Assembly (NCBI GenBank): GCA_030770425.1
Contig: JASJFT010000007.1
Location: forward strand, 252,245-316,244
Direction of reading: 5' to 3'
Length of the DNA: 64,000 nt
Source: Darksidea phi
Taxonomy: Eukaryota > Ascomycota > Dothideomycetes > Pleosporales > Lentitheciaceae
The notes under the pieces were generated by a model, which worked only from the letters and a program-made list of their open reading frames with translations, searched no databases and was not told where the DNA came from. Position 1 is the stretch's first letter; every line of letters begins with the position of its first letter. Both the position numbers and the translations under genes were made by a program. Positions 10,067-58,107 of the stretch are shown here, piece after piece.

Positions 10067-12024
10067 CTACATCTTATGCACCTTACTATCCTTCGTCCAC
10101 CTTCTAAACACCTTCCCCTTCCACCAAAACAAGCCGCCAAACAAACACCACAGCAGCACCAAACTAGCATTCGTCATGATGGGCGGGATGAAGCCCTTCT
10201 CCTCAGCCCACGGCGTGATAAACTTGCTGAACCCATAGCCCCACAAATTCTTGTTCACGGTGATGCTCACGAACAGACTGCCGGCTACGGGCTTGTAGCT
10301 GTCGACGGCGTAGGTGCTGCTTATAGCGGGGAGCGCCGCTACTTGGATGCCCGCGCACGTGAAGCCGATGATGACGATGGCTTCCCAGGGCCAGTGGCGC
10401 TCGTAGCCGACGGCTACGACGATATTGCCGAGGTACCTGTTCGTGGTGGTTAGCAGAGTGAGTGGAAGGGGGTTGTGCAGACGAAGGACGTACATGATTA
10501 TGATATAGGGGATCATGGCGGGGAGACGCATTTCGGGCTCACGGATGCCATTGTTGCGGCGTGTGGAGCGCGCAGATATGTAATCGCTCAGGGGTCCTGC
10601 GGTGAAGAGGCCGATCAGGGCGCCGATTAGGATGGCGAAGTTTTGGAAGCCTGCATGGGGGTGTGAGTTGGTTATATGGTGGGGCTGGAGAACGGTCTTG
10701 AAGCGTGTAAAGGGAGACTTACCAATGGCCATGGGCTTCATGTTGTATGGTGGAGCGGCGAAAGCTTGACTTTGCGTCAGGTTGATGGTCAGGAAGGAAC
10801 TGCAACTCCACGATACGACGAAGCTGGCAAACTCGACGATGGGGAAGGCGAAAAGCTTCCACGGGATCCAGAGATCGAGGAAGATGCTCCTAAACGGATG
10901 TGCGTTGGGTTGGAAGACAGCCCATTGCCACTTCCCCGGTGTTCCCCTGCCCAAATAAGGATCTCGCGCGGCGGTCTCTTCGGGCGTAAGACCCTCCGCA
11001 GCTGGAAGAGCCGAGACTGCTGTGGGGACTTGCTGGATGAGCTCTTCATCGTGGGTCTTTGTATTGGCGGTGTTTTCAAGAGTAATGGGCCGTTCCTTTT
11101 CCGTCTCAGACAGGTCCGGACTCTCTGGTTTCGCCTCCTCCCTGTTGAACCGCGTCTCGGGAAACAACGCGACAACCATCAAGAAGCTGGTTCCCAATAA
11201 AGCAGTGTTTAGCCACCAAAAGCTCCTCCATCCAATATCTTCCGCCATGGCACCCGAAACAATCGGTCCCACCATCAAACTACCCATGTACACGACCCAA
11301 TACAGCGTATTCCACTTCCCGCGATCGTGCAGGAAGAAGATATCTGCAATGACGGCGGGCATGATTGTCTCAGCAGGCCCGGCGCCGAGCCCGTTGACCA
11401 CGCAGGCGCCCATGAAGGAGTTGTACGATGTGGCTTTTGCGCGCCAAACTGAGGTGCCGAAGTTGATGAGCTGGGAGAGGAGGAAGACGGGGCGGCGGCC
11501 AAAAGATGTGCTTATCGGGACCCTATTCCTCTCGTCAGTGACCATTTTCTCCAATTGGCAAAATCGACTCTTCCCCATTTTGCATTCCACGTACCATATG
11601 AAATTACTGAAGCCCAATACTAAAATGCAAACACCAGTGAACTGCACCGCCTCCTGCAATCCACACTCAAAGCTCTCCATCAACGCCGGAAACATGGGCG
11701 CCAACGCCAACGGGCCGAACCCTTGCGTGAACGTCACCATAGCCGCGGACGTGATGCAAGCGATTTTCCACGGGGTGCTCCAATTCAAGGGATCGTGCGG
11801 GTCGGCGGAGGGTTGCGGGACGAGAACGGTGCGGTGCGCGCCCTTGACGAAGTGGTGGCTCCCGACGTCGGCCATGATTTCAGTGCCGGGAAGGATCTCG
11901 GTGTGAAGCTCAGCTTCGAGCTCGCGGGCCGTCTATGTAGGATGTTAGTTCGTATAAGGTAGGTATAAGAGAAAAATAGACTAGAAGGACATGGACGGAC
12001 CTTTTCATCGTGGACGGTCACCAT
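10067..12024 (-). CDS. major facilitator superfamily transporter, DHA1 type
   Basis: Five exons: 12024-12001, 11932-11595, 11522-10723, 10650-10494 and 10436-10067, giving 562 aa. Hallmarks are PHDPLNWS before TM1, GRRPVFL in the TM2-3 loop, about 12 hydrophobic segments split by a hydrophilic loop (~residues 270-330), and the family-typical CAGIQVAALP and YGFSKFI near the C terminus. The 24-nt first exon (MVTVHDEK) is followed by ELHTEILPGTEIMADVG. That segment reads in frame and matches the N terminus of this subfamily, so the true start is upstream of the Met at 11875. Intron 4 (10437-10493) uses GTACGT and removes an otherwise open 19-codon insert. It is a plasma-membrane drug or metabolite exporter by family. 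The substrate cannot be read from sequence. Confidence 0.9.
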
Positions 12025-55524: not shown

Positions 55525-56916
55525 TTGTAATGGCGCGAGCGACGTTGAATGCTGATGAAGTTGCTTTAGATTGCCTAAAAGGGTAGGTTCTGGGAAGTGT
55601 GGATTACAGTCGTTTTTGTTTTGTTTCTGATCCCTCGCTACACCCAGCGGGGCTATATATGGATGCTGGTAAATTTTATTTTGTCCGCGGACACGCCTCT
55701 TTACTCATCAACATAGCTTTTACGAATCTTAGGATCGAGGATTCCATCAATGTATGAATTGTTTCCCGTACATAATAACGGTGACGTTCAGAGACGATGC
55801 TGAAGCCGTGGAAAGCGGTGAGAAACTACCCAACATTTTGATCACGCAATCTGGAATATGGCGAATCTGCTGATGATACTAATAATTGTACTCGATTGTT
55901 TTTGCAGAAGGGGCTGTCTGCGGATAATGCGTTCTGGTATGAGGTTTACTTTCGGCGACAAACCGCATTAAACTCCCACTCGATCATAATGAGCAATTGG
56001 CCGGTTGATGCGAGAAAGGTGCATTCTAGCTTTTCACATCAATGCGAGAGTTTTAGCAAGAAGATCTTGGTGCTGTTTGGGCAGTGCACGAAATCTGCTT
56101 GGTCTTTCCCGCGATACAATGCCTAGGTATATTATATCGAGCAGCTGGTCTTCACCCAAGATTCGCTATGTGCCAAATCAAACATAATCCAATAACCGCT
56201 CTCTCCGATCTCGGACGAGAGATACCCCTGATGTGTGTCCGATGCGGAGCCACCCTAAAGCGACAATTCATTGGCAAAGAGCCCGCTTTCTGTACCATCT
56301 CCGCAGCGAAGGGCAAATATATAGCCCAACCGCAAGCTTGCGTAACGCCCAGTTGCAATCCAAAGGTCGAAAAGGTCAGGTTGACCAATTCATGGTCCTG
56401 TAGAACCCCACCATCCCCTTCATTCGGTCCGACCATCTCTCAAAAGTGGAACTTCCGGAAGAGGCTAAAAGTGGTAACCGATTTTTCGGGTTGTTCCCCT
56501 GTAACAGTATATGTGCTAGTAACAGGGAAGGTTTATGTTGTGATTTGTCATTCTCGTGCTTTTAACGTTATTCTATGAAGTTATGCTTTATCTAGTCAGT
56601 AGCTCCTTCTACTATTTGAAGCGGAAGATTGCATGCATATGTGGCTATCATGTAAATAAGCGGGGGTGTCCGCGGACAGCTTTGGTAGATGGAGGAAGCC
56701 GATAGAGTCGAATTATTTCTAAACAAAAAAAATGATTAAAGAACGTCAATGCCAGTGTCTTGAGCTGTATGGCGGAATGTAAGCCGAACGGTGACGTAAC
56801 ACCCCCGGTAACCGAGGGGCGAATGTGATAGCTTGCTCTAGCTCAACAACCCCGCAGCTCAGCAATTTTATTTGAGCTATTCATATATTTTAAAACCCGA
56901 CCAAAATTCCATCAAA
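55525..56916. other. AT-rich intergenic region
   Basis: No gene supported. A TATATTTTAAAA box at 56884-56895 lies about 22-33 bp upstream of the tRNA gene, a usual position for fungal Pol III upstream elements. Confidence 0.45.
56884..56895 (+). promoter_or_regulatory. TATA-like element upstream of tRNA-Glu
   Basis: TATATTTTAAAA ends 22 bp before the first base of the tRNA. Upstream TATA boxes assist TFIIIB placement at many fungal tRNA genes. Whether it is used here is inference. Confidence 0.5.
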
Positions 56917-56953
56917 TCCGTTATGGTGTATCGGCTAGCATCCGTCGCTTTCA

Positions 56954-56971
56954 TTGCAAAATGACAAGTGC
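56954..56971 (+). other. canonical-position tRNA intron (37/38)
   Basis: Eighteen nucleotides between A37 and C38 of tRNA-Glu, the standard site cut by the eukaryotic tRNA splicing endonuclease. Confidence 0.8.
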
Positions 56972-56984
56972 CCGACGAGAGCCG

Positions 56985-57034
56985 GTTAGTACCGTCTCCA
57001 GTAATTCCAACCTTCCACACTAACAAAGTACTAG
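56985..57034 (+). other. mRNA-type (GT-AG) intron-like insert in the tRNA T-stem
   Basis: Starts GTTAGT, contains ACTAAC with its branch A about 12 nt before the terminal AG, and is 50 nt long, like the spliceosomal introns of protein genes in this window. Because of flanking G residues the insert borders can slide by one or two bases. Only one of the three equivalent registers gives GT-AG. Confidence 0.6.
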
Positions 57035-57060
57035 GGTTCGACTCCCGGTAACGGAACTCA

Positions 57061-57067
57061 TTTTTTT
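57061..57067 (+). terminator. RNA polymerase III terminator
   Basis: Run of seven T beginning five bases after the tRNA-Glu discriminator base. Confidence 0.85.
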
Positions 57068-58107
57068 GTAAATTTTTTGACACGTACATCGTAAGTCAAC
57101 AACTTCAGCGGGATTGGGATTATAATGCTAATAACTAAGCTCTTGTGCACTTGCATTGCCCTTTCACTGTGGTATTTTCTTTTACCTAGCACCTGAATGG
57201 CATGTAGTGATCATTCACCTGTGGACCTCAAGGCGTTCGCTACCCAGGCCGTTCCCAGCTCTCGCTTCGACTTCTCATAGTTGCTTTGCTCCTTCGCTCG
57301 GCGCCTCGAATCAAACAAGATTACACCTCCGCGATATATCGGACTTATTGTCGCTGGTACAATCTACGCTTCCCGAGACTCACGGTGCCTGTCCGCGGAC
57401 ACCCGCACTATGAAGCTGACACGGAGACAGTCGACGAGTACTTGCAACCACGTTCACAGGCACAGTCTACAGCGGTTAGGAGCTTCCTCGGCAAACGCTA
57501 TATAGTTCCCCACCACCCCCCTAAGCAGCTTCGAAAACACTTTCGTTCGACCGGGCACAAGAGGACTTACAAACGGGCGTTATGCTGCGTGGGACTCTCG
57601 TATGGGAACTGTGTCCTCGAGCATGAGCGTGCGTAGCCGCCGTTTCTTGTACTATGATTTTCAGTGCGCTCTGTTCTGTTTGAGCTGTCGGCCTGCCCTC
57701 GCTGTGAGACGTAGGGCTCGGTGGCTGGTCGAGGTTGAGTGCTGACGTTTGTAAGGTTTGGGCGGCCAAGTTTCTTAATGCTCATGTCTCGCTTCGGATC
57801 GAAGTAGTTCTGCTTACGTAGTTCCATTGGAAACTTCTTCTTCTTCTTCGTTGTACGAGATAGATAGGACGAGTAATTGAGCCAGTATTTTTTCTTTCGG
57901 ATTTTTACTGTCATATTTTTTTTTCTTTTTTACGTATGGCGGGTCTAGTACCCCTTCAAATCTTGTGTAAAAATTTATTTTGTTGGATTTGCATCAATGT
58001 TTCTTGGCTGTACATATTTCGCCCTGTAACCACAGCATCTTCATCCATCATCTTGAAAATGTATTTACTAACATTGTGTCACGAATTGGCTGTATCTCAG
58101 AACATTA
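57068..58107. other. intergenic region
   Basis: About 1 kb, no supported gene. Overlapping frames at 57281-57636 lack recognisable content. Confidence 0.4.

Follow-up and report, generated by a model that had tools for sequence, protein, structure and literature searches.

Putative spliceosomal introns in the tRNA genes of Darksidea phi

A tRNA-Glu(UUC) gene with two introns of different type

The window, a 64,000-nucleotide stretch of Darksidea phi DNA, contains a tRNA-Glu(UUC) gene together with an amino-acid transporter gene and a gene for an MFS protein. Lentithecium fluviatile provides the closest match for both the transporter (91% identity) and the MFS open reading frame, introns included (77%), which places the source among the Pleosporales. 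The tRNA gene consists of three exons, and its features are as follows.

56884..56895, plus strand: AT-rich, TATA-like TATATTTTAAAA upstream of the tRNA-Glu(UUC) gene, recognized by eye
56917..57056, plus strand: tRNA-Glu(UUC) gene with exons at 56917-56953, 56972-56984 and 57035-57056, from the sequence and from ARAGORN on the spliced 72-mer
56924..56934, plus strand: A box region TGGTGTATCGG, from the sequence and the consensus
56954..56971, plus strand: 18-nt anticodon-loop intron at 37/38, of the ordinary endonuclease type by its position in the loop and its lack of GT-AG ends
56985..57034, plus strand: 50-nt GT-AG intron in the T stem, between 51 and 52, of spliceosomal type by its sequence signals
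56985..56990, plus strand: 5′ splice site GTTAGT of the T-stem intron, from the sequence
57020..57024, plus strand: branch-site motif CTAAC (within CACTAAC), in which the A at 57023, 11 nt from the 3′ end of the intron, is the candidate branch point
57032..57034, plus strand: 3′ splice site TAG of the T-stem intron, from the sequence
57035..57045, plus strand: B box GGTTCGACTCC, uninterrupted by the intron, from the sequence and the consensus
57061..57067, plus strand: run of seven T, candidate Pol III terminator, from the sequence

Removal of both introns yields a 72-nt tRNA in which an acceptor stem of 7 bp, an anticodon stem of 5 bp and a T stem of 5 bp can be read from the sequence. ARAGORN identified this spliced 72-mer as Glu(ttc), and when the T-stem insert was retained no tRNA was called. 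The gene is thus as described in the first-pass annotation, which had proposed a tRNA-Glu(UUC) with a 37/38 intron and a further insert in the T stem; the interval given there ran on through the T run to 57067, and A73 is at 57056. When the whole window was submitted to ARAGORN and to Rfam (gathering score), neither returned a match.

The tRNA-Glu(UUC) gene is flanked by the 21-nt arms of an inverted repeat (56659-56679 and 57389-57409), which are 90% complementary and lie 709 nt apart. Both arms contain the palindrome TGTCCGCGGACA, a third exact copy of which is found at 55682-55693, giving three matches compared with 0.14 expected. These palindrome-bearing repeats may serve as regulator sites or represent terminal repeats.

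Inserts outside position 37/38 in tRNA genes across the genome

The genome searched was a draft assembly of 51.35 Mb in 477 contigs. Loci were found with a Glu tRNA 3′-end pattern and with ungapped B-box patterns and were then read individually. Through this route, we identified 17 inserts outside 37/38 in 15 tRNA genes with 12 anticodons, located in D, anticodon, variable and T arms. The interrupted genes are those for Glu(UUC), Glu(CUC) (two genes), Ala(AGC), Arg(ACG) (three genes), Arg(UCU) with two inserts, Lys(UUU), Leu(AAG), Leu(UAG), Leu(CAA) with two inserts, Ile(AAU), Val(CAC) and His(GUG). None of the 17 inserts is at 37/38, and seven of the 15 genes have a separate intron there or nearby. 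The gene sequences matched genome DNA, the last base aside, for 14 of the 15 genes; that of the 15th, one Arg(ACG) gene (L066), was taken over directly from its locus. The possibility that the window gene is a lone oddity or an assembly error is ruled out by the 14 further interrupted tRNA genes; the first-pass annotation described a single case, and reading across the genome reveals a recurring arrangement.

Of the five sites matched by the Glu tRNA 3′-end pattern, three are Glu(CUC) genes, one is the window gene, and the fifth is not tRNA-like. The B-box pattern GGGTTCRANYCCC gave 33 matches, which we judged to comprise 26 nuclear tRNA genes (one of them, C425, counted by acceptor pairing and length alone), two matches on mitochondrial-looking contigs and five without a tRNA. 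An mRNA-type intron was present in 8 of these 26 genes, a share that is probably low because genes broken at 52/53 are mostly missed by this pattern. Three B-box pattern searches gave 45 new matches, 24 of which were read, and the count of 17 inserts is accordingly no full census; the 24 comprised 10 tRNA genes, six of them with mRNA-type introns, and 14 matches without a tRNA. Three near-alike stretches (L074, L076 and L081, at G000:C22, C103 and C390) have a B-box-like match and no tRNA acceptor, and are possibly a repeat. A gapped pattern joining the B box to the branch motif gave 274 matches compared with 724 for its backwards control, which is no enrichment, and was excluded from the counts; the His(GUG) gene (L034) came up by chance among its loci. 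A covariance search scored 63 of 1735 candidates. Genes for Phe, Tyr, Trp, Pro and elongator Met tRNAs were not found in this partial genome survey.

Several interrupted genes have paralogues at which the insertion site can be compared. A GTAAG...CTAAT...TAG insert occupies the identical T-stem site in two Glu(CUC) genes and is absent from the third. Within the filled pair, all 72 exon bases are identical, and GTAAG, CTAAT at equal distance and TAG have all been kept; the intron interiors have a similarity of 0.48, a level reached or exceeded by 179 of 200 shuffles (shuffle mean 0.54). Two Arg(ACG) genes (L047 and L048) differ at 2 of 51 intron bases and at no exon base. The D-loop intron of a Leu(AAG) gene (L145; G000:C34:4395-4570, minus strand) is of the GC-AG kind, beginning GCAAGT, and the uninterrupted Leu(AAG) paralogue L134 represents its empty site.

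Two genes bear more than one insert. The Arg(UCU) gene (L164 with L160; G000:C432:65440-65780) reads as having three introns: in our parse, two GT-AG introns bracket TAGCG, a 5-nt exon whose bases complete the D stem, and the third lies at 37/38. In the Leu(CAA) gene (L158 with L165; G000:C85:54290-54600, minus strand), the first GT-AG intron falls within the anticodon, at 34/35, and a second sits just ahead of the T stem. Degenerate 5′ halves were seen in two Arg(ACG) genes, L066, which has a GT-AG insert in the variable region, and L103, which is uninterrupted.

After splicing, ARAGORN called the expected anticodon in 13 of the 15 genes; the call for Leu(CAA), which has a T-T mismatch in the anticodon stem, was ambiguous, and L066 was not called. 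With the insert retained, six of the 15 genes gave no tRNA, four gave the wrong isotype and Leu(UAG) gave only part, while the Ala(AGC) gene (L058), Arg(ACG) L047 and L048 and the Lys(UUU) gene (L084) were still called, with one long intron. A run of at least four T starting no more than 12 nt past the acceptor was present at all 10 loci checked, which were nine of the 15 insert genes and one gene without an insert. For most of the mature tRNAs, the structure predicted by RNAfold fell short of the full cloverleaf.

We then asked how many genes serve these anticodons. A pattern for the 5′ half of tRNA-Glu(UUC), searched over the 51.35 Mb with up to 3 mismatches, matched the window gene, the three Glu(CUC) genes and one site that is not tRNA-like, and with a 3′-half pattern (up to 2 mismatches) the window gene was again the sole Glu(UUC). 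The count of other tRNA-Glu(UUC) genes, for which the first-pass annotation had called, is therefore zero by both patterns. By the decoding rules, tRNA-Glu(CUC) is not expected to read GAA codons. A Lys(UUU) pattern (up to 3 mismatches, whole genome) matched only the interrupted gene, although a divergent copy could be missed, since the pattern was built from the gene that it found. Both sole-copy statements apply to a draft assembly searched with patterns that allowed at most 3 mismatches.

These results bear on the possibility that the introns landed in disused tRNA copies, with working copies elsewhere. Copies without an insert were seen for Glu(CUC), Ala(AGC), Leu(AAG), Ile(AAU) and His(GUG), L066 has a degenerate 5′ half and is not called after splicing, and a review attributes most insertions into the arms of eukaryotic tRNA genes to pseudogenes (PMC4090602). 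However, the only Glu(UUC) and Lys(UUU) genes found are both interrupted, 13 of the 15 genes yield the expected tRNA once spliced, and the splice signals were kept while the Glu(CUC) intron interiors diverged. We consider pseudogenes an improbable explanation for the set. For the window gene, the pseudogene alternative raised in the first-pass annotation is unlikely, given that the searches turned up no other Glu(UUC) gene and that splicing leaves an intact cloverleaf.

Splice signals of the inserts, controls and mRNA introns

All 17 inserts have GT/GC...AG ends. Their 5′ sites are GTAAGT (seven inserts), GTAAGC (two), GTACGT (two) and six single forms, including one GCAAGT, and their 3′ ends are TAG (10), CAG (five) and AAG (two). 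A CTRAY motif with its A located 9 to 12 nt from the 3′ end was present in 16 inserts, and the remaining one, in the Lys gene, has TTAAC at 11 nt. Lengths range from 47 to 66 nt, with a median of 51. In mononucleotide shuffles of the 17 inserts, GT/GC-AG ends arose in 0.92% of trials, and such ends plus a placed branch motif in 0.17%. For only one gene, Ala(AGC) L058, did the discovery pattern include the AG end; the Glu genes were found without AG in the pattern and the others, apart from the chance find of His L034, by patterns outside the intron. None of the patterns that found the 17 inserts contained a 5′ end or a branch site.

Anticodon-loop introns from the same genome (n = 28) were used as a control. 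This set includes Thr L115, Asn L133 and Asp L150 and excludes Cys L136, the stem of which could not be placed, as well as the imperfect genes Leu(CAA) C85 and Arg L066. All 28 control genes were recognized with the expected anticodon once their introns were removed. None of the control introns starts with GT or GC, three end with AG, and none does both. A comparison of branch motifs between inserts and controls would be unfair because the controls are short (10 to 35 nt), but the comparison of ends is fair. That the anticodon-loop introns and the inserts are of the same kind is ruled out by these ends. Among anticodon-loop introns, those of three Asp(GUC) genes (L137, L150 and L151) differ in length and all end in AACAAG.

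For mRNA introns, we examined the MFS gene of the window (10067-11932, minus strand), in which gaps relative to the Lentithecium protein delimit three introns of 72, 72 and 57 nt. Their 5′ sites are GTACGT, GTAAGT and GTACGT, they have YAG ends, and two of the three have CTGAC or CTAAC near the 3′ end. Four more mRNA introns, three in the window and one in L167, were identified by eye from coding frames and read with splice sites in mind; they are approximately 46 to 51 nt long, all four are GT-AG, and three have CTAAC or CTAAT near the 3′ end. Pooled, a CTRAY motif near the 3′ end was found in five of the seven mRNA introns, a small sample. The tRNA inserts share the signals and size of the genome's own mRNA introns, and the resemblance that the first-pass annotation had noted for the window insert extends, in the same sequence marks, to the 16 others.

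We considered whether the inserts could instead be ectopic introns cut by the tRNA splicing endonuclease, as proposed in red algae or seen in nucleomorphs, with the GT-AG ends a coincidence. D-arm and T-arm introns are known in the tRNA genes of Cyanidioschyzon merolae and of nucleomorphs (PMC9602550 and PMC4090602), and genes here do bear 37/38 introns of that class. Structure alone rules out no insert. A complete strict 4-bp central helix, as in a bulge-helix-bulge, was seen in none of the 17 inserts and likewise in none of 11 anticodon-loop introns, and this comparison does not discriminate. GT/GC-AG ends in every insert, together with placed branch motifs, compared with such ends in none of the 28 anticodon-loop introns, argue against this explanation, which we regard as very improbable.

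It is equally hard to credit that an introner or other mobile family, that is, one element copied into tRNA genes, spliced or not, accounts for the inserts. Introners are known across many eukaryotes (PMC9860276), and insert lengths are nearly uniform. However, there is no detectable similarity among the 17 inserts save the near-identical pair in L047 and L048, and a 63-nt query spanning the window insert matched only itself in the genome. The same search speaks against the insert being a repeat present at many sites, which the first-pass annotation had allowed for, and found no donor copy for it. A single repeat family is rejected, as the inserts are dissimilar and the window insert is unique. 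An old family that has diverged past recognition may nevertheless underlie them, and would be compatible with the inserts being spliceosomal introns.

Proposed maturation of the interrupted tRNAs and relation to known introns

Together, the sequence data make it very probable that a U2-type spliceosomal intron interrupts the T stem of a functional tRNA-Glu(UUC) gene and that the tRNA genes of this fungus have, with this one, at least 17 such introns. In the pathway that we propose, Pol III would transcribe the gene via its A and B boxes and end at the T run. U1 and U2 would recognize GTTAGT and CACTAAC, and the spliceosome would remove the 50-nt intron, letting the T stem form, while tRNA endonuclease and ligase would separately take out the 18-nt intron of the anticodon loop. 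T-stem introns are presumably removed first because end trimming needs the T stem. Such introns may have been gained by reverse splicing, the origin that the first-pass annotation had proposed for the window insert.

It also seems likely, if less firmly so, that the spliceosome is an obligatory tRNA-maturation machine in this fungus. On this reading, spliceosomal introns occur in approximately 3 in 10 nuclear tRNA genes, among them the sole genes for Glu(UUC) and Lys(UUU), and some of these genes have two, once around a 5-nt micro-exon. As the sole genes for these two tRNAs are interrupted, GAA and AAA decoding would depend on pre-mRNA splicing of Pol III transcripts.

Counterparts are found in other RNAs. 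According to one study, interruptions are known to be frequent in no small structured RNAs other than U3 and U6 (PMC5832005). The introns of fungal U6 snRNA and U3 snoRNA are likewise mRNA-type introns in a small structured RNA, and U6 (in some lineages also U3) is a Pol III product, like tRNA. Here, in contrast, the host is tRNA, with many genes and sites, the precursors also have endonuclease-type introns, and the U6 of this genome is itself intronless (one match, full model length in 100 nt). Ascomycete 18S rRNA genes, including those of Pleosporales, the same order, contain GT-AG introns in a noncoding RNA; RT-PCR has shown excision, and spread by reverse splicing has been proposed (PMC11889510). 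The 18S intron described there is 355 bp long and occupies one site in a Pol I transcript, whereas the tRNA inserts are 47 to 66 nt long and occupy many sites.

Among tRNA introns, the ectopic ones of Cyanidioschyzon merolae and nucleomorphs resemble the inserts in lying in D, anticodon and T arms, with several per gene (PMC9602550 and PMC4090602). The C. merolae introns are tied to the bulge-helix-bulge and tRNA endonuclease, and the Guillardia nucleomorph introns measure 3 to 24 nt and their mode of splicing is given as not established; the inserts here, at about 50 nt, have GT-AG ends and branch motifs. Ordinary eukaryotic 37/38 introns, which are removed by endonuclease and ligase (PMC13149111), also occur in this genome, the window gene included; at 10 to 35 nt, with GT/GC-AG ends in none of 28, they are unlike the inserts.

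A literature search that covered few subscription papers and preprints yielded no description of tRNA genes with spliceosomal introns. Spliceosomal introns and their presence in U6, U3 and rRNA genes are known; on this search, the tRNA host class and the scale are not. A need for the mRNA-splicing machine in making tRNAs is contrary to the reviews, the rule of which fails if the introns are excised. In that case, the natural substrates of the spliceosome would include the Pol III transcripts of a core gene class, the cell could not supply its tRNAs without splicing, and a single precursor would pass through two unrelated splicing machines. Because paralogues with and without an intron have identical flanking exons, no reading frame and a known structure, intron gain is directly testable in these genes. 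Finally, as tRNA finders miss interrupted genes, tRNAs that appear to be missing from related genomes may be interrupted ones.
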